56,909 nt of DNA, taken from contig JALHQL010000001.1 in assembly GCA_022841985.1 (NCBI GenBank), positions 69,529 to 126,437 of the forward strand, written 5' to 3'. The position numbers and the translations under genes are program-made. The notes beneath the pieces are model-generated. The model worked only from the letters and a program-made list of their open reading frames with translations. It searched no databases and was not told the DNA's origin. Shown here in pieces: positions 5,089-56,007 of the stretch (within the stretch, counting starts at the first letter, position 1; the number at the start of each line of letters is the position of its first letter). This DNA comes from Minisyncoccota bacterium. GTDB taxonomy: Bacteria; Patescibacteriota; Minisyncoccia; Phycocordibacterales; Phycocordibacteraceae.

Positions 5089-5120
5089 AAAATCGACCCT
5101 CAAGGGTCGATTTTGCTTTT
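5089..5120 (+). terminator. Rho-independent terminator after tRNA-Leu
   Basis: Perfect 11-bp stem AAAATCGACCC / GGGTCGATTTT with a TCAA loop, followed by GCTTTT. It abuts the stop of the peroxiredoxin gene on the other strand. Because the stem starts with an A-run, it can terminate transcription in both directions. Confidence 0.9.
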
Positions 5121-5780
5121 CTACAACTTCCCTACTAAATCGAGACCCGGCTCGAGCGTGTCGTCGCCCGGTTCCCAAGATGCAGGACAGACCTGACCCT
5201 TGTGCGTCTCGACATATTGTGCCGCCTGGAGTTTACGCAATGTCTCTGAACCCTTGCGACCAATTGAGTTATCGCTAATCTCCATCGAGCGGAGTATACC
5301 GGATGGATCGATGATAAATGTCCCCCGAAGCGCAAGACCTTCATCTGGCGTAAATGCTATCTCCCCACCCTCGATGAGTACTCCGAAAGCAGACGATATT
5401 TTTCCTGAGGGATCGGCAGCCATTGGATATGAAATTTCCTTAATACCAGCCGACGTATCGTGCCATGCTTTGTGGGTGAAGACAGTGTCAGAAGAAACCG
5501 AGATGATTTCGGCATTAAGCTCTTGAAACTTCGGATACAATTTTGCAAGCTCCTCAAGCTCAGTCGGACAGATAAATGTAAAATCCGCCGGATAGAAGAC
5601 AAGGACCGTCCACTTACCGCGAAGTTGCGAGAAACTCATCGTTTTAATAACGCCTTGGTGAAAAGTCTCGAATTCAAAATCAGGCACCGTGGCACCCACT
5701 TTCACCTGCGAAACATAGTCGCGCACTAGATCATGGAACTCGCCGCAATTCTCACAATAGTTGCTTTTAGTATCTTTCAT
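5121..5780 (-). CDS. 2-Cys peroxiredoxin (AhpC/Prx1 type)
   Basis: Cytoplasmic thiol peroxidase that reduces H2O2, peroxynitrite and organic peroxides. The peroxidatic Cys is at about residue 71 in FTFICPTE, and the resolving Cys at about residue 198 in GQVCPASW, the typical 2-Cys arrangement with a C-terminal tail. The N-terminus carries an extra CENC motif (Cys9, Cys12), unusual for the family; it may bind metal or add a redox pair. No dedicated reductase such as AhpF is adjacent. It is divergent from miaA, and the short spacer of about 22 bp must hold promoters for both. Confidence 0.95.
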   Translation of the reverse strand: MKDTKSNYCENCGEFHDLVRDYVSQVKVGATVPDFEFETFHQGVIKTMSFSQLRGKWTVLVFYPADFTFICPTELEELAKLYPKFQELNAEIISVSSDTVFTHKAWHDTSAGIKEISYPMAADPSGKISSAFGVLIEGGEIAFTPDEGLALRGTFIIDPSGILRSMEISDNSIGRKGSETLRKLQAAQYVETHKGQVCPASWEPGDDTLEPGLDLVGKL

Positions 5781-5802
5781 ATTTTTTGATTACGCTTCCA
5801 CC

Positions 5803-6672
5803 ATGATACCATCGCTCGCAGTGCAAAGACAAATAAAAGAACCCATTCTACTTATCATGGGGCCTACGGCCTCAGGCAAGTCTTCTCGTGCGGTCGAGGA
5901 AGCGCTCGCTCGAAACGGAGAAATAATTTCTGTCGATTCACGACAGGTATATCGCGGCCTCGACATCGGTACAGAGAAAATAACGCCCGAAGAGATGCGA
6001 AGTATACCGCATCACCTTATCGATATTCGCAACCCGGAAGAAAACTATTCTGCGGGAGATTTTTTCATTGATGCGACGCGTCTCATTACAGAAATTTCAG
6101 CGCGTGGGAAACTCCCCATTCTCGTCGGAGGAACGCATTTTTACTTTGATGCACTCCTTAAAGGTCTTCCGATTGGAATTGATGCAAATCTCATTCTTCG
6201 CGAAGAACTTGAGAAACTCCCAACTGAAGAACTTGCTCAGCGTGTTATTGTGCGCGATCCGCGTCGTGCGAGCGAACTTGATACAAAGAATCGTCGTCGC
6301 CTTATTCGTGCACTTGAAATTATTGACTTAAAAGGAGAAGTGCCGATACGGACATTGTCCGAGCCAACATATAAAGTCGAATGGATTATCATCGATCCCT
6401 CAAAGGAAGAACTGCAGCCGAGGATTGACATGCGACTTAAGAGCGCTCTCGATCGCGGACTCATAGATGAAGTACGCCGTGTGCACCAAGCAGTAGGTGA
6501 CACGCGACTAAATGAGCTCGGACTTGAGTACAAAATTGTGGGCGAGTTTTTACGCGAAGAACGAACTAAGGAATCGCTCCTTCCCGCTCTCTCGGCGAAA
6601 CTTTGGCAGTACGCACGCCGTCAGAAAGCGTGGTTACGCAAGCTGCACAATGAATCATTGTTAATAAATTAA
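5803..6672 (+). CDS. miaA: tRNA dimethylallyltransferase
   Basis: Transfers a dimethylallyl group to N6 of A37 in tRNAs that read codons starting with U, which fits the presence of tRNA-Leu(CAA) and tRNA-Trp nearby. The P-loop is GPTASGKS near the N-terminus, followed by SVDSRQVYRGLDIGT (DSRQVY substrate motif) and GGTHFYFDALLKG. The length of 290 aa is normal. An upstream in-frame ATG exists, but it runs back into the divergent peroxiredoxin gene, so the Met of MIPSLAV is preferred. The 3' end overlaps the next, convergent gene by 4 bp. Confidence 0.95.
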   Translation: MIPSLAVQRQIKEPILLIMGPTASGKSSRAVEEALARNGEIISVDSRQVYRGLDIGTEKITPEEMRSIPHHLIDIRNPEENYSAGDFFIDATRLITEISARGKLPILVGGTHFYFDALLKGLPIGIDANLILREELEKLPTEELAQRVIVRDPRRASELDTKNRRRLIRALEIIDLKGEVPIRTLSEPTYKVEWIIIDPSKEELQPRIDMRLKSALDRGLIDEVRRVHQAVGDTRLNELGLEYKIVGEFLREERTKESLLPALSAKLWQYARRQKAWLRKLHNESLLIN

Positions 6673-7565
6673 TTACATCCGCACGACCTGCCAACACTCA
6701 CGTGAAGATGGTCGCCCTCATTCTCGACGTAATTCGCTCCACACGCTGTGGCTGCTGCAGAAAGTACCTGTGTGTTTTGCTGATCGCCAAAATCAACTGC
6801 ATAGGAGCTGCCGACGCAAGACCTTCCCCCATAATGACAGGAGTTCGCAGCATGTTGGCACCTGCCAGCCACACATTGCGCGAATGTGTTTTGGCCACTC
6901 GTTATTTGACTATCAGAAATAGAAGAGATTCTACCGACTCCCGCCGGCACTCTTGTAACCATGCAAGACAGCAATGATTGCAATGCTCCTGATGCATGCG
7001 CCACCTGCGCTTCTATCCCGGAATCATAAGTGAATCTGCCGGGTGCAACTCCCGGGGCTGTCTCAAGACCAGGGGCTGTTACTGCAGGTGCCAAACCCTC
7101 ACCAGGAAGAGCCCCCCTTTGCTCAAGACAGGAGTCGATACCTCTCGAACCAACAATGAGACTCGACCACGTCTGTCCAACGCCAGATGGGTTGTAGAGC
7201 ACCGCCATAATTGCAGCAACAATCATCCAAGCAGCAAGCGAAATAACGATGCCGATAACTGTATTCCAAAGGATAGTTTTTGCTTTTTGAACATCTCCGG
7301 CCGATGTCGGATTAACCACCATGAGAAAGCCCGCATACCCAATCATAAGAGGCGCGACGAAGACGATAGCAATCGTTAACGCAAAACTAATGATGTTGTT
7401 AATGACTTCCATAAGCATGCCAAAACTCGCCGGACACACAGCCTGATTGCCGGCCTGTGGAATAATGGGGCCGAAGAAAGGTATCCCGCCCGCATATGCA
7501 ACAAGAGGCAATGCAAGCGAGCTCACGAAAAACAGAAGTGTGAAGAAAGAGATTCGAGAACGCAT
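6669..7565 (-). CDS. VirB2/TrbC pilin-like membrane segment fused to an M15/LAS-type peptidase-like domain
   Basis: A 299-aa exported protein. Residues 1-25 form a signal peptide (hydrophobic stretch ending AYA). Two long hydrophobic helices follow at about 50-80 and 95-122, with the layout of VirB2/TrbC pilins. After a Pro/Gly/Ala-rich linker, the Cys-rich C-terminus contains a His (SCHYGG), SYAVDFGD and finally GDHLHVSVG. This matches the zinc ligand pattern His...Asp...HxH of LAS metallopeptidases (M15/D-Ala-D-Ala carboxypeptidase type). Cell-wall cutting at a secretion or pilus complex is an inference. TATGAT ending 6 nt upstream fixes the ATG at 7565 rather than the longer frame. Confidence 0.7.
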   Translation of the reverse strand: MRSRISFFTLLFFVSSLALPLVAYAGGIPFFGPIIPQAGNQAVCPASFGMLMEVINNIISFALTIAIVFVAPLMIGYAGFLMVVNPTSAGDVQKAKTILWNTVIGIVISLAAWMIVAAIMAVLYNPSGVGQTWSSLIVGSRGIDSCLEQRGALPGEGLAPAVTAPGLETAPGVAPGRFTYDSGIEAQVAHASGALQSLLSCMVTRVPAGVGRISSISDSQITSGQNTFAQCVAGRCQHAANSCHYGGRSCVGSSYAVDFGDQQNTQVLSAAATACGANYVENEGDHLHVSVGRSCGCN

Positions 7566-7724
7566 GGGTCTATCATACCGCGTGCCGCTCCGTGTCGCCC
7601 GACTTTTCCCCCACACAGGTTTTGCCTGCTGGCAAAACCCGCGAGCACACCTCTTTCGCTCAGTCCGGCCTTACGAAGTGCCAGGTATTCGCTTCTCACC
7701 ACCTATCTGGTATCGTTCAGATAC

Positions 7725-7795
7725 GGGTCCATCGTATAATGGTAGTACATCGGTCTCCAAAACCGACAGCCCAGGTCCGATTCCTGGTGGGCCCG
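7725..7795 (+). tRNA. tRNA-Trp (anticodon CCA)
   Basis: The acceptor GGGTCCA pairs with TGGGCCC through one G-U pair. The anticodon stem-loop TCGGT-CTCCAAA-ACCGA gives anticodon CCA. The T-arm is CCAGG-TCCGATT-CCTGG. The 3' CCA is not encoded: the discriminator G runs straight into a long hairpin. The roughly 160 bp between the gene at 7565 and this tRNA shows no further gene. Confidence 0.94.
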
Positions 7796-48280: not shown

Positions 48281-49456
48281 ATGCAAAAACCGCTTCAATT
48301 TACCATTGTCATGGTATTCCTCCTTGGAGTATTTCTTACGTCTGGAAATTTTCAAACTGCTCACGCTCAAGAACTAATACAGAATAAGGTTGAAACCGTC
48401 AAAGCGCAGGTACTTGAAATTTTAAGCCAGGAGGTGAGAAATATTCCTGGCACTGAGACGAGTCATGATTTTCAGAAGATCAAAGCCAAGATTCTCGAAG
48501 GTGATCAGAAGGGACAAGAGATCACCGTCGACAATGATTACTTAAGTCTGAAAGTCGATGAGATTTTTTATCTTCGACACGAGACGGACGGCCTCGACGG
48601 AAGAGAAATGTATGCAGTTTCAGAACCCTATCGTCTTCCGGCACTCTACGGGTTCATTTCACTCTTCGTATTTTGTGTGATTGTTTTTGGCGGTTGGCAG
48701 GGACTCCGTGGACTAATTGCGCTTGCAGCGAGTTTTGTATTTATTTTCTACCTACTCTTTCCGGGTATTATGCACGGCTACTCGCCGATCTTGGTGAGTA
48801 TTGGCGTATCTTCACTCATTATTGTACTTGGCTCGTACGTAACGCATGGGTTTAATAGGACGACAACATCAGCGGTAATCGGTATGGTCACCACGATTTT
48901 GTTTACTGGTGCACTCGCATACTACGCCGTCGATGTAACACGTTTAAGTGGCTTCTCCTCAGAAGAATCGGTGTACCTCAATTTCGGTACGAACGGCACA
49001 ATTGATTTTGTCGGCCTCCTGCTCGGCGGTATTCTCATCGGATTGCTGGGCGTGCTTTATGATGCCGCAATAAGCCAAGCTATTGCGATTGAGGAACTAC
49101 ACAAAATCGGACCTCATCTTTCACGCGCCTTCATTTTTAAACGCGCGCTTCGTATCGGGCGCGAACACATCGGTGCTCTCGTGAACACGTTGGCAATCGC
49201 GTATGTTGGTGCATCGTTACCCCTTCTCCTGCTTTTCTATGCGACCACTGACTCTAGCTTCTCGCTGAATCTGAACCGAGAATTGTTTGCTACTGAAGTC
49301 ATCCGAACGATGATTGGTTCAATTGGTTTGGTGCTAGCCGTTCCTATCACCTCGTTAATCTCTGTACTTATGTTGGTTAAACACCATGTTGTATCTGACA
49401 AGAGATTAGTAAGTAAAGAACAAGAGGCGATTGAGCACGTCTCGCATACCCATTAG
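48281..49456 (+). CDS. YibE/F-family membrane protein
   Basis: 391 aa. A cleavable signal peptide (ending AHAQ, residue ~30) and an extracytoplasmic beta domain to about residue 120 precede eight or so membrane helices. LPALYGFISLFVFCVIVFGGWQGLRGL and the GLLGVLYDAAISQAIAIEEL segment are typical of YibE/F. The family is of unknown transport function but often sits under metal regulators. It lies 59 bp after the Fur-family gene. The C-terminus ends in HVSHTH. It stops one base before the recombinase stop on the other strand. Confidence 0.88.
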   Translation: MQKPLQFTIVMVFLLGVFLTSGNFQTAHAQELIQNKVETVKAQVLEILSQEVRNIPGTETSHDFQKIKAKILEGDQKGQEITVDNDYLSLKVDEIFYLRHETDGLDGREMYAVSEPYRLPALYGFISLFVFCVIVFGGWQGLRGLIALAASFVFIFYLLFPGIMHGYSPILVSIGVSSLIIVLGSYVTHGFNRTTTSAVIGMVTTILFTGALAYYAVDVTRLSGFSSEESVYLNFGTNGTIDFVGLLLGGILIGLLGVLYDAAISQAIAIEELHKIGPHLSRAFIFKRALRIGREHIGALVNTLAIAYVGASLPLLLLFYATTDSSFSLNLNRELFATEVIRTMIGSIGLVLAVPITSLISVLMLVKHHVVSDKRLVSKEQEAIEHVSHTH

Positions 49457-50740
49457 TTACTCCATCGTCACCTTTTTATCTTTCAGAAACAGTTTGCTTT
49501 GCAAGCACCCGAGCAGTTCTCGTTTTTCAATCAGTGTTCCTTCCTTCAGTAAGTACTTCGCGTAATTTCTCACGTCGACATCGATAGCGACTTTATCCTG
49601 TTTATGTCCCAATACTCCCGATCTAAATTTGTTGAATCGCTTTATCTCATCCTCGATCCTTGCTCGCACACCTAGTTCGTCTAAGTTCACTGTATCGATG
49701 AGTCCTATCAGTTCTTCGATCAAGCTCGGTTCGTTTACCGCAGGGTTCTTACAGTCTATGTTTCGCGCCTTTGTACAGAAGTAGTACACATGTCGGTTTA
49801 CACCACCATCTTTTAGTTTCTTGAATTTCTCGTCTGCTGATATGCCTGATCCGCAGTGTCCGCACCGTATCAGTTTTGTGAAGGCGAACTCCTTACTCTC
49901 AGTCTTTGGTATGTAATTTGCATTTAAAGTTAGCTGTACTTTTGTATATAGCTCCTTATCTATTATCGGTGTGTGCTTTCCCGTGTACCATTGACCACCT
50001 CCGACTGGATATTCAAAGTCTCCGTAGTAGAACGGATTTCGTAAGATTATGTAGATGTTTGCGAGCACGAGTGGCTTACCTCGATGTGTTTTGAAGTCTA
50101 TTTCTCTCAGCCATCGGTATACTTTTCGTCCACTCCATTGTTCATGCGCGACCTTCTCAAACATCTGTTTGATAATTGGTCCACGCTTTAGATCTATTCT
50201 GCACTGGCATTTCTTGTCGACATGTTTCTCATTTAAGTATCCCGTCGGTGCAACTCCTGGTCTCCATCCCATCTCACATCGGGTTCGTAATCCTCGCTTC
50301 ACATTCACTGCCTTGTTATCGTTCTCGAGTTTTGCCTGACTTCCAAGAATCATCAGAAGGAATTTCTCATTCGGATTGTTGGTGAACTTTTGACTATACG
50401 TTCGTATCTCATGCAGAAGCTTCTGATCCATCAGGTCTACCACCGATCCTAAGTCTCCAGCATTTCTGCTTAGTCTGTCCGGCGCCCATGTGAGAATCGC
50501 ATTGAATTTCTGCGAGCGTAGTTCCTCGAGCATTTTGTTGTATACAGGTCTCTGTCCAACCTCCTTTGAAGAGTGCGATTCACGTTTTATCTCGACCACG
50601 TGCAGATGCTCACGTTCAGCCAGCACCTGCATTTCCTTTACCTGTGACTCTATTGAAAGAGCCTGTTTGTCCTCAGCTTCGGTACTTTTGCGTGCGTAGA
50701 GGCAGTATCGTAAGGCCCCTTGTGGTTGCGTTTTTTTCAT
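49457..50740 (-). CDS. Large serine recombinase
   Basis: 427 aa. The N-terminal resolvase domain has YARKSTEAEDKQALSIESQ with the nucleophilic Ser in the ARKST segment, and WAPDRLSRN. A recombinase domain (GVAPTGYLNEKHVDKKC..., KTHRGKPLVLANIYIILRNPFYYG) and a zinc ribbon (CGHCGSG...CTKARNIDC) follow, then a C-terminal coiled region. This is the integrase type of phages and integrative elements, which insert at att sites without needing tRNA genes. An alternative TTG start adds 7 residues. It reads away from the S24 regulator gene, so the two are divergent. Confidence 0.94.
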   Translation of the reverse strand: MKKTQPQGALRYCLYARKSTEAEDKQALSIESQVKEMQVLAEREHLHVVEIKRESHSSKEVGQRPVYNKMLEELRSQKFNAILTWAPDRLSRNAGDLGSVVDLMDQKLLHEIRTYSQKFTNNPNEKFLLMILGSQAKLENDNKAVNVKRGLRTRCEMGWRPGVAPTGYLNEKHVDKKCQCRIDLKRGPIIKQMFEKVAHEQWSGRKVYRWLREIDFKTHRGKPLVLANIYIILRNPFYYGDFEYPVGGGQWYTGKHTPIIDKELYTKVQLTLNANYIPKTESKEFAFTKLIRCGHCGSGISADEKFKKLKDGGVNRHVYYFCTKARNIDCKNPAVNEPSLIEELIGLIDTVNLDELGVRARIEDEIKRFNKFRSGVLGHKQDKVAIDVDVRNYAKYLLKEGTLIEKRELLGCLQSKLFLKDKKVTME

Positions 50741-50763
50741 ACACCACAAGGAATGACGCAATG

Positions 50764-50860: not shown

Positions 50861-51607
50861 ATGCAAAAAAACAATCAGGGGTATGAAGCTGTAGTGCAAC
50901 TTCTAAGAGATCATCCCGAATGGTTTCCTGTGGTGGCAGCTGCCCTAGAAGAAGCGCAGACCATTAAGAGCAACCGCTTTGCGGGTGCGTGGATTCTTGA
51001 GCGCGCGAAGAAGCATGGGGTCCAGTGGATTCCCAATTTTCGTAAGCTTGTTTCCTATGGAATTTTACAGAAGGACGGTGAGTCATCTCGCGGTGGCCGT
51101 CGCGCATATTATTCGATGCCTGATGTTGCAGGTGTGGAGAAAGCACTAAAGGAATTCGATTCCCCACAAGTTGCAGCACCGTACACCGCTCATGAAGTTA
51201 CGGATTCTGGCATTGCTAAAAGAAAAAATATCCTGGTACCATTTTATGCGAATCTCGCATCATGTGGTGGTCCGAATATTAGTGAGGGATATGTCGATGA
51301 TTATGTTGAAGTAAGTACGGAGTCTGCAAAACCCGGCTACCAGTATTATCTTGTTCGTGCGGACGGGGACTCAATGAATCAAGCGGGAATAAATAGTGGG
51401 GATCTCATTTTGGTGCGTGTTCAGGATTACGCCAACCTAGGCGATAGAGTTATTGCATGTACAGACGATGGTGTCACCATCAAGGAATTTCACCGACAAG
51501 GTAATTCTATCCTTTTGATGCCGCGTTCAGACAATTCCGCGCACAAACCTTTATTACTAGATAGCGTTCAAATACAAGGAGTCGTCGTTGCGACGGTGCC
51601 GAAATAA
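50861..51607 (+). CDS. S24-peptidase (LexA/UmuD-type) regulator
   Basis: 248 aa. Residues 1-110 form a helical DNA-binding-like region with a possible winged helix (FRKLVSYGILQKDGESSRGGRRAYYSM). Residues 125-248 are the self-cleaving domain: cleavage pair Cys135-Gly136 in LASCGG, Ser171 in DGDSMN, Lys208 in VTIKEF. The Ser-Lys distance of 37 residues equals LexA and UmuD, and the Cys-Gly bond and its 36-residue distance to Ser equal UmuD. This predicts RecA-stimulated self-cleavage and so damage-induced expression of the genes it controls, probably itself, the downstream genes or the recombinase. Confidence 0.9.
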   Translation: MQKNNQGYEAVVQLLRDHPEWFPVVAAALEEAQTIKSNRFAGAWILERAKKHGVQWIPNFRKLVSYGILQKDGESSRGGRRAYYSMPDVAGVEKALKEFDSPQVAAPYTAHEVTDSGIAKRKNILVPFYANLASCGGPNISEGYVDDYVEVSTESAKPGYQYYLVRADGDSMNQAGINSGDLILVRVQDYANLGDRVIACTDDGVTIKEFHRQGNSILLMPRSDNSAHKPLLLDSVQIQGVVVATVPK

Positions 51608-53467: not shown

Positions 53468-53533
53468 TCGCCATTAATTCTCTGTTGGTAACTCCGCTTC
53501 GCAAGCCTTCAAAGCTAAGTTAAGGTGTCAAAC

Positions 53534-53760
53534 GATAGCGCTTTTTGCTATCATGTTCATGTACAACTGAATATCTGGCCGGAAGGCCAGCGACCTAACC
53601 CCTCACGTTTTGCGTGAGGATATGGTCGGGAAAGCCCTTCGCAGACACTGAACCCCACGTTCAGCGACTCTGCGAAGGGTCATATCGGGAAACTGGTATG
53701 TGGCCGCAAGGCCTAGCTAGCGTGGGGTTTAGTGTTATATGGACTCCTCGCTTGTTAGGC
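53534..53760 (+). ncRNA. Candidate structured RNA after TIR module
   Basis: The 319-bp gap after the second TIR gene contains, in order: GATAGC/GCTATC (53534-53552); CTGGCC-GGAA-GGCCAG (53575-53590, GNRA loop); GACC..CCTCACG-TTTTG-CGTGAGG..GGTC (53592-53627); an 11-bp stem CCCTTCGCAGA/TCTGCGAAGGG (53635-53679) enclosing TGAAC/GTTCA; and GGCC-GCAA-GGCC (53702-53713, GNRA loop). The hairpin-loop side AACCCCACG pairs with CGTGGGGTT (53721-53729), giving a possible pseudoknot of up to 15 bp. No ORF. No known RNA family was recognised. Confidence 0.6.
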
Positions 53761-53786
53761 AAATTTATTAACTAGCCTAAACAAGT

Positions 53787-54248
53787 ATGGAACAGCAAAT
53801 AGAGAAGTCGAAGAAAAAGCTTTATCAGCGTTGGTGGATGTGGGTCATTTATGCCATCGCATTCACTATTGTGATTGCCAACTTTAGCGGGTCGAGCAGT
53901 AGCTCCGCTCCTGCGTCAGCTCCACCACAAGAAGCGATCAAAGTGACCGCTCTTAAGATAGTCAATGACTACAAGGAAAACGGTGTCGCGGCAGATGCTA
54001 CCTACAAAGGCAAAATTATTGAAGTCACAGGTACCGTAAAGACAATAGACAAGGATATTCTCGATACGCCATATATCGCACTCGAGAGTTACGAGTATGC
54101 CATCGTCGATCACGTGCAGTGCATGTTCCCGAGGTCGAGCGCGGCGGAGTTAGCGACCGTGACAAAGGGGCAGAAGATAACACTCCGTGGAAAGGTGCTC
54201 ACCAATATGGGCAACATCCTTGTCGAGGATTGCTTAATCGTGAGATAG
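53787..54248 (+). CDS. Membrane-anchored OB-fold protein (tRNA_anti-like)
   Basis: 153 aa. One N-terminal membrane helix (residues 14-32) follows a Lys-rich start, then a Ser/Ala/Pro linker and an OB-type beta domain (YKGKIIEVTGTVKTIDKD...QKITLRGKVLTNMGNILVEDCLI), as in OB_fold tRNA_anti-like families. Its job is unknown. It converges on the terminase-like gene with no spacer. Confidence 0.8.
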   Translation: MEQQIEKSKKKLYQRWWMWVIYAIAFTIVIANFSGSSSSSAPASAPPQEAIKVTALKIVNDYKENGVAADATYKGKIIEVTGTVKTIDKDILDTPYIALESYEYAIVDHVQCMFPRSSAAELATVTKGQKITLRGKVLTNMGNILVEDCLIVR

Positions 54249-54689
54249 TCACTTCTTTGTTTCTTTTCGAATAATGCCGTAATTCTTGAGTGCGTTCATA
54301 ATCGGTTCCACGATGTGTGGTGGTAATTTATTTCTATCAACGTGAGCCTTCAGTCGCTCATAGTCTCTACGTTCAATTTCCGTTAGTGGCTCGACGAATC
54401 TACTTCTCTTCGGCATATATCGTGGATCGTTGTGTGTCAGGAAAAATTGGATTGCTCGTAACTTTTCATTCTTTACACCTTTCATAAGTGCCGCCTCGGC
54501 AACCTCGATCCAACGCTCTCGACCATCTTTGAGTGCGCGATTAACACCCCGTCGGTAGTCGACGTTACTCTCCATCCAGCGGTAGTGCGTTGCCCGAGCT
54601 ATTCCTACACTTTTGCAGGCATGTTCTATGTTCGGATTGTCTGCAAGTAACCGGATGATTTTATTCCTTTCATCACTGGTTCGTGCCAT
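54249..54689 (-). CDS. Terminase small subunit-like / phage HTH protein
   Basis: 146 aa. An N-terminal helix-turn-helix (NIEHACKSVGIARATHYRWM) is followed by EAALMKGVKNEKLRAIQFFLTHNDPRY, a pattern typical of phage small terminases and phBC6A51-like proteins. No large terminase is seen in the window, so its presence may be a remnant or part of a satellite. Its start overlaps the methyltransferase 3' end by 17 bp. Confidence 0.7.
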   Translation of the reverse strand: MARTSDERNKIIRLLADNPNIEHACKSVGIARATHYRWMESNVDYRRGVNRALKDGRERWIEVAEAALMKGVKNEKLRAIQFFLTHNDPRYMPKRSRFVEPLTEIERRDYERLKAHVDRNKLPPHIVEPIMNALKNYGIIRKETKK

Positions 54690-56007
54690 GGATCTTTACC
54701 CGCTTTTTTCCTGAGAACTTCTCCCAGCGGTTCAGAATCACCTCAGCGTAGATCGGTGACTTTTCCATAAGGAAGCAACGCCTTCCCAGTGCATTGGCAG
54801 CGATAAGCGTCGACCCGCTTCCACCAAATGGTTCAAGTACTAACTGACCCCTCCGCGTGAGCACTTTGATGTACGGAATGAGAATCGGGAGAGGCTTCAC
54901 GCCAAAGATAATACCTTGGCCGCTCGACTTCTCATCCGCTGCATTGTGATCGATGAAGTCAGTCGGGCAGTACGCTTTATCCTTCCCATAGGACTCCCAG
55001 TGGGGCTTCCCAGCTATGGCGAAGAGTGCAGTCTGGTATTCGTTCTCCAGCAGTTCGTCCTCAGGAGAGAGATCGAGTCCAGGATGCTCGGCACTGGTAC
55101 CGACCATTGCGATATCGTGTTTCGAGAAGAACTTGTGCTTCCCGGCATATCCTTGGTTCCGGTTCGGAAGATGCCACACGATCATGTTCCGCACCTTCCA
55201 GTGTTTTTCCATCTCGCTCCAGATCTCACGGATGTTCTTCCAGTTTTCGTAGCAGATAATCGAAAAATCTTTTGCAGCAACCTTTGCTACGTTGCCCATC
55301 CAGAGTTCGGTGAAATTCTCGGGGAGGGATTCGGTTTCGAGATAACGACGATTCTTCTTGGAGCCAAATCCTGTTGTCGACTCACCGTTACGTGTCTTGC
55401 CCTTAAGATAGTCGAGACGATACGGTGGATCGGTCATCACCATATCGATTCTGTGGTCCCCAACGAGGGCAAGCATATCTGCCTCAATCGTTGAGTCACC
55501 AATGTAGAGACGGGAACCGTCGAGATCATACAAGTCGCCTTTTTGAGCGGTGATCTCTTTGATATCAAGTTTGTCGAGCTCTTTTTCTAGATCGAATTGC
55601 TCTTCACTTTTCTCTGTCGCGAAAATGTCGTCGAGTTCCTCCGAATCGAAGCCGATATCCTTGAGGAAGGATTCGTCAAACTGTGCCAAGAGGTCGAGGT
55701 CAAACTGACCTTGGTTTTTATTGAGTCGGATGTTTAGCTCCTTTTCTCTCTCAAGTGGAAGATGGACACGAACAATGGGTACCCGTTCGACCTCCATTTC
55801 CTTAAGCATGGTGAGACGGAAATTGCCGCCAACTACGATGTTCATGCGCTCCTCGGTTGAGTTCACGATGAGTGGGTCAAGGACGCCAAACTTCGAGAGG
55901 CTCGTTTTGAGATCTCTCTTGTCCGACTCACTCCACACTCGCGGGTTATATTCGCACTCTTTTAATTCGTTGATCGAGATGTATTCGATCGTTAGGTCTT
56001 TGTTCAT
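54673..56007 (-). CDS. ParB-N domain fused to DNA methyltransferase
   Basis: 444 aa. The N-terminal ParB/Srx-like domain (residues ~5-115: ISINELKECEYNPRVWS, VNSTEERMNIVVGGNFRL) is joined to a D-x-x-x-PPY class methyltransferase: MVMTDPPYRLDY near residue 197-208, and the SAM motif LEPFGGSGSTLIAANALGRRC near 395-415. The motif order (catalytic before SAM-binding) is that of beta-class N6-adenine or N4-cytosine enzymes. Such fusions are typical of phages and mobile elements and have no partner restriction enzyme here. Confidence 0.93.
   Translation of the reverse strand: MNKDLTIEYISINELKECEYNPRVWSESDKRDLKTSLSKFGVLDPLIVNSTEERMNIVVGGNFRLTMLKEMEVERVPIVRVHLPLEREKELNIRLNKNQGQFDLDLLAQFDESFLKDIGFDSEELDDIFATEKSEEQFDLEKELDKLDIKEITAQKGDLYDLDGSRLYIGDSTIEADMLALVGDHRIDMVMTDPPYRLDYLKGKTRNGESTTGFGSKKNRRYLETESLPENFTELWMGNVAKVAAKDFSIICYENWKNIREIWSEMEKHWKVRNMIVWHLPNRNQGYAGKHKFFSKHDIAMVGTSAEHPGLDLSPEDELLENEYQTALFAIAGKPHWESYGKDKAYCPTDFIDHNAADEKSSGQGIIFGVKPLPILIPYIKVLTRRGQLVLEPFGGSGSTLIAANALGRRCFLMEKSPIYAEVILNRWEKFSGKKRVKIHGTNQ

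Follow-up and report, generated by a model that had tools for sequence, protein, structure and literature searches.

LOOT RNA of Patescibacteria as a Candidate Shape-Changing Leader of Mobile-Element Accessory Genes

Comparison of about 140 copies suggests, at the level of sequence, that LOOT RNA is a leader whose changes of shape switch single accessory genes, often phage-exclusion genes, of prophages and similar mobile elements. The copy studied here lies in the window, that is, the whole stretch of 56,909 nucleotides analyzed from a Minisyncoccota bacterium. We lean toward the view that this RNA is the 5′ leader of a superinfection-exclusion (Sie)-like gene (53787–54248) in a Patescibacteria prophage and that it acts in cis as a two-state switch.

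Results

Identity and Fold of the RNA

The gap at 53468–53786 is the site of a full-length LOOT RNA. A sequence-only reading had called the RNA in this gap unassigned and proposed an Rfam search. That search corrects the label: a covariance model matches 53592–53714 of the forward strand to LOOT (RF03000) with 80.0 bits (E = 1.6e-13; model positions 1–121), against a curated gathering score of 46.4 bits. The match is full length, with P1–P5 included, and contains the conserved core of the family, that is, CCUAAMC at 53594–53600, RYAUGG at 53621–53626, and the GAAA loop of P4 at 53689–53692. Rfam matches to mir-2830 and DUF3800-VIII were below threshold and are ascribed to chance. An integron attC site, suggested by eye from the arrangement RYYYAAC...GTTRRRY, was rejected: the conserved features resemble those of RNA, and only 1 of 128 leaders contains GTT(T)AGG.

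LOOT reportedly comes from the set of Weinberg et al. 2017. It is an orphan family, already known in Rfam, where its type is "Gene; sRNA" and no function is assigned to it. The Rfam 14 paper (PMC7779021) also presents it as an example.

The fold of 53534–53760 has a predicted energy of −108.9 kcal/mol, whereas 200 dinucleotide shuffles of the same segment average −71.2 kcal/mol (z = −7.6, 0/200 as good). All five hairpins of the earlier reading, its two GNRA loops (GGAA and GCAA), and its 11-bp stem were recovered. A hairpin at 53534–53552 is followed by the GGAA-loop hairpin (53575–53590, forward strand), which lies directly 5′ of LOOT and outside the conserved family; a similar hairpin occurs in few other loci (e.g., L012) and is absent from most. 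Within the core, P2 spans about 53601–53619. P3 (53634–53680) has a perfect outer stem of 11–12 bp (53634–53645/53669–53680) that closes a 23-nt loop with an inner hairpin, P3b. P4 (53681–53700), whose GAAA loop is also of the GNRA type, and P5 (53702–53713), which carries the GCAA loop, complete the core, all on the forward strand. Overlooked in that reading were P4, the RF03000 identity of 53592–53714, and, at 53741–53791, a second switch strand with a start-codon hairpin. Separately, the columns of 53599 and 53621, inside the CCUAAMC/RYAUGG core, show noncanonical covariation of A/C with C/U, which suggests a tertiary contact or a ligand pocket.

A Conserved Pseudoknot beyond the Rfam Model

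The P3 loop strand at 53645–53661 pairs with 53719–53735, a strand on the same side of the DNA directly after P5. The Rfam model stops at P5, so this pseudoknot is real and conserved yet absent from the model. In the window the helix is 17 bp long and extendable to 18. The whole P3 loop is complementary to the segment after P5 in 144 of 145 parsed copies, and the single failure is a locus truncated at a contig end. When 134 distinct copies are aligned, 92% of the in-register pseudoknot cells are paired, compared with 45–53% after a slide of 1–3 columns, and each pair of a nine-base-pair core is formed in 97–100% of these copies. A conserved mismatch column (53652–53728) breaks the helix.

Three pseudoknot pairs (53656–53724, 53661–53719, and 53659–53721) covary significantly when substitutions are re-placed along a FastTree tree as the null, the sequences counted being related to one another. 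The pair 53656–53724 has the highest covariation among all column pairs and is paired in 134/134 copies, as AU, CG, GC, UG, or UA. Thus the long-range pairing that had been offered as a possible pseudoknot is kept and covaries in 134 distinct homologs, as the proposed covariation check establishes. For comparison, only two additional covarying pairs are given for LOOT in the Rfam 15 paper (PMC11701678). UG prevails at two pseudoknot positions (118/134 and 87/134), which argues for pairing in RNA rather than DNA because such pairs would be mismatches in DNA. The inner hairpin P3b is less conserved than the pseudoknot.

In many copies the full helix of 17–20 bp leaves too few loop nucleotides for bridging with P3 closed, and the full pseudoknot helix and the closed P3 are therefore likely to be mutually exclusive. 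The 9-bp core and P3 could coexist, which would give a static fold instead of a switch.

Position before a Single Gene

In 128 of 136 copies an ATG frame of at least 60 aa on the same strand begins no more than 100 nt downstream of LOOT (median 36 nt), whereas the divergent side has one in 25 of 140; LOOT is thus consistently close to a same-strand gene, as befits a cis leader. In the window this gene encodes a membrane-anchored tRNA_anti-like (OB-fold) protein that is superinfection-exclusion-like (forward strand; PF12869, 1.4e-23; phrog_8545, 7.5e-23). Recurrent families among 124 led proteins scanned include the superinfection-exclusion families phrog_4980 (10 proteins) and phrog_8545 (8), the immunity-to-superinfection family phrog_1039 (2), the candidate defense families PDC-S18 and PDC-S11, nucleases, and methyltransferases. 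About two-thirds of the led proteins have a hydrophobic segment.

Upstream, on the forward strand at 53485–53526, lies a block of the form TTGGTAAC-N-CTTCGCAA...CTAAGYTARGGT that is probably part of a promoter or operator region. About a dozen other loci also carry its CTTCGCAA...CTAAGYTARGGT part upstream of LOOT, and the genome as a whole contains its TTGGTAAC...CTTCGCAA part a single time. The block may be an operator bound by a prophage repressor, for instance the S24 protein described below. A consensus scan found GTGTCA-18-TATCAT, a promoter-like site whose −10 element is preceded by TG, at 53525–53554 of the forward strand, a match that is weak alone (0.6 expected). Across 145 loci, TANNNT is enriched at −33 to −26 before LOOT.

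Distribution and Mobile-Element Setting

LOOT is present in 37 of 99 relatives and in 64 of 287 genomes of the phylum, with 1–5 copies each, and in 0 of 14 control genomes. When 85,000 species genomes were scanned with a pattern, 77 stretches were returned, and all named records among them belong to Patescibacteria (Parcubacteria/Paceibacterota and a few Microgenomates) except for two, labeled Gastranaerophilales and Pacearchaeota, which we take for mis-binned contigs. LOOT is thus seen here only in Patescibacteria. The source genome (0.67 Mb, 98% complete) has two copies. In another genome (G191), equal-scoring copies at the ends of contigs C25, C40, and C88 point to elements that were duplicated recently and interrupt the assembly.

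The window copy lies in a prophage, between integrase and TIR cargo on one side and terminase-like genes on the other. A large serine recombinase divergent from LOOT (49457–50761, reverse strand; PF00239, PF07508; phrog_95 integrase, 2.1e-60) is followed by an S24 repressor-like gene (50861–51607), a DUF2188 gene, a TIR/membrane protein/TIR unit, LOOT, the Sie-like gene, a gene for a terminase small subunit-like HTH protein (54249–54689, reverse strand; phrog_1482 and phrog_4102, about 3e-5), and a gene for a ParB-N6/N4 DNA methyltransferase fusion (54673–56007, reverse strand; PF01555, PF02195; phrog_498, 1.2e-72). This gene order indicates that LOOT leads an exclusion-like gene of the prophage cargo region. 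The suggestion that the RNA is part of a defense island accordingly stands insofar as the RNA lies among prophage cargo genes, but it has a promoter-like site of its own and leads the Sie-like gene, not the TIR genes. No match for the element of the window was found among known phage or plasmid records.

The serine integrase adjoins the 3′ end of a host YibE/F-like gene (48281–49456), and the junction at 49456/49457 is a likely attachment site. The segment 51865–53467 encodes two ThsB-type TIR proteins (the second matching PADLOC ThsB1 at 4.8e-66) around a 200-aa membrane protein without a Pfam match, possibly a prophage-carried Thoeris-like unit with a membrane effector. In a viral contig of the same architecture (L178), an 899-aa KAP-like P-loop NTPase (5094–7793) occupies the position of the TIR cargo, so that the interval from the integrase to LOOT resembles a hotspot for cargo.

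In the 37 LOOT genomes, 32 of the 56 copies have a PF07508 recombinase within 6 kb, compared with 2.3 expected, and always in one orientation sense: the recombinase is upstream and divergent for 28 copies and downstream on the strand of LOOT for 4, with no other arrangement. Terminase and ParB-methyltransferase genes stand on the opposite strand at many loci. Additionally, two LOOT-bearing IMG/VR viral contigs share the terminase/methyltransferase block, and one of them also has the serine integrase. Some copies lie in restriction-modification regions or apparently chromosomal surroundings; the association with mobile elements is thus strong, not universal. A role as a packaging RNA or DNA site was rejected, as copies occur away from terminases too.

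Pairings That Compete with the Pseudoknot

Downstream of the pseudoknot, the forward-strand segment 53741–53760 can act as an anti-pseudoknot strand. It forms a hairpin with 53711–53732 (−29 kcal/mol, z = −5.2) that competes with the pseudoknot, and it is also the 5′ arm of an alternative start-codon hairpin at 53745–53791 (−16.6 kcal/mol, z = −3.6), 53745–53760 being common to both hairpins. Across loci, the pseudoknot 3′ strand is complementary, in its 5′ part, to a segment of the leader of its own locus (p = 2e-13 against swapped loci, peak offsets −4 to +2). The mean duplex energy is −15.2 kcal/mol versus −11.6 for swapped loci (p = 4e-13); these controls keep composition and not phylogeny. 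The window duplex, at −28.2 kcal/mol, is stronger than every control.

In a subset of loci (36/139), 9–17 nt of the P3 5′ arm recur downstream, often together with the unpaired A-rich prefix of the arm; when loci are swapped, the rate is about 1%. In 31 of these 36 the copy sits at the start codon, with about twenty distinct sequences among them. The window leader has no such copy. The 12-mer of its P3 arm does not recur exactly elsewhere in the genome, and matches with one mismatch are at the control level. For other LOOT segments, loci without an arm copy showed no general similarity to the leader. Among 17 noncopy loci with a strong hairpin before the ATG and a good anti-strand, the anti-strand lies in the 5′ arm in 14 and in the 3′ arm in 0. 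An intrinsic terminator precedes the gene in about ten loci, and its 5′ arm is the anti-strand in several, for example L012, L132, and L130.

For the window, the predicted ON and OFF folds have energies of −86.9 and −94.4 kcal/mol, with 53% versus 23% of the start region predicted to be unpaired. Over the 89 loci without an arm copy, predicted accessibility of the start region did not differ overall between the states (p = 0.59); start-codon sequestration is therefore not general, and a single expression platform for all copies is ruled out by this comparison. A general role of the pseudoknot as a terminator was also rejected: the T-run is not conserved, and no terminator-like site was found in the window. 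A recognizable output element is absent from about half of the copies. Mutually exclusive pairings that reach expression signals are seen in the window, in the 31 arm-copy loci, and in some terminator loci.

Discussion

The suggestion of a functional RNA is strongly supported by the pseudoknot and its covariation. A regulatory role gains indirect support from the position of LOOT and from the mutually exclusive pairings, and nothing found points to a ribozyme. We hypothesize that in the ON state of the window copy P3 would be closed, with the anti-strand 53741–53760 holding 53719–53735 and the start codon free. In the OFF state the P3 loop would take 53719–53735 as the 17-bp helix, and the released anti-strand would pair with 53775–53791 and bury the start codon. 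Other copies would combine the same core with different outputs. In several of the about ten terminator loci the anti-strand would serve as the 5′ arm of the terminator, and in the 31 arm-copy loci the freed P3 3′ arm could pair with the copy of the P3 5′ arm that abuts the start codon. In all three designs formation of the pseudoknot would mean OFF. We infer both the switching and its sign, and a cellular or infection signal may set the balance between the states. Against a switch count the lack of an accessibility effect over the 89 loci, the half of copies without an output element, the missing arm copy in the window, the typing as sRNA, and the weaker conservation of P3b.

That typing would fit a stand-alone, trans-acting sRNA whose downstream gene is merely adjacent and whose pseudoknot is a static part of the fold, as would the promoter-like block directly upstream and the intrinsic terminator between some copies and the gene. 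We consider this unlikely given the consistently short distance to one same-strand gene, the specificity of the anti-strand and arm-copy complementarity to the own leader of each locus, and the absence of a second genomic copy of the window P3 arm beyond chance. Still less probable is an element of DNA, such as a packaging site, transposon end, or recombination site, that only resembles RNA: terminase genes near many loci and serine recombinases nearby are what such an element would predict, whereas the G-U pairs that dominate conserved pseudoknot positions, the GNRA loops, the copies away from terminases, and the lack of an Rfam match to a transposon or to any family beyond LOOT make this reading very improbable.

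The immunity RNA CI of the satellite phage P4 acts with repeats complementary to one strand in the leader of a mobile-element operon. By analogy, the variable P3 arm of LOOT might determine specificity: it would pair in cis and, when another element superinfects, also in trans with the same repeats on that incoming element. The P3 arms are indeed highly variable and fall into shared types, the arm is directly repeated at the start codon in 31 loci, LOOT lies in mobile elements, and superinfection-exclusion families are among the led genes. We nevertheless regard this as improbable, since the repeat is absent from the window and from about three-quarters of copies and LOOT leads one accessory gene instead of a replication operon. 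LOOT also differs from P4 in that it is not known to give a separate short immunity RNA.

The leader switch that we favor is closest to pseudoknotted riboswitches with terminator or start-codon platforms, in which a conserved core is likewise followed by variable, mutually exclusive pairings before one gene. Unlike these, LOOT has hypervariable P3 arms and leads unrelated accessory genes, not one pathway. LOOT also resembles the RCd22/abiF-motif RNA, an RNA antitoxin that binds the AbiF protein in the prophage AbiF system, in being a structured RNA beside a phage-defense gene of a prophage (PMC12373285). Because LOOT, unlike RCd22, leads many unrelated proteins, action as a protein-binding antitoxin is unlikely.

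For the family as a whole we propose, more tentatively than for the window copy, a riboswitch-like sensor that is specific to Patescibacteria. Prophages and further elements with serine recombinases would have spread it, and it would gate single genes for superinfection exclusion or defense. A strand would be passed between P3, the pseudoknot, and the start signals, and one sub-design would be an exact exchange of the P3 arm with its own copy at the start codon. To the Rfam description this analysis adds the strand of the pseudoknot, the anti-strand, the copy of the P3 arm, and the setting in mobile elements. With the pseudoknot, the locus-specific complementarities, and the tie to accessory genes of mobile elements, LOOT changes from a family without a function to a candidate switch whose predicted on and off states can be tested. 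If this is true, prophage-carried superinfection exclusion would be under RNA control in an almost wholly uncultured bacterial radiation, and the trigger of the switch could be an infection or host-state signal.
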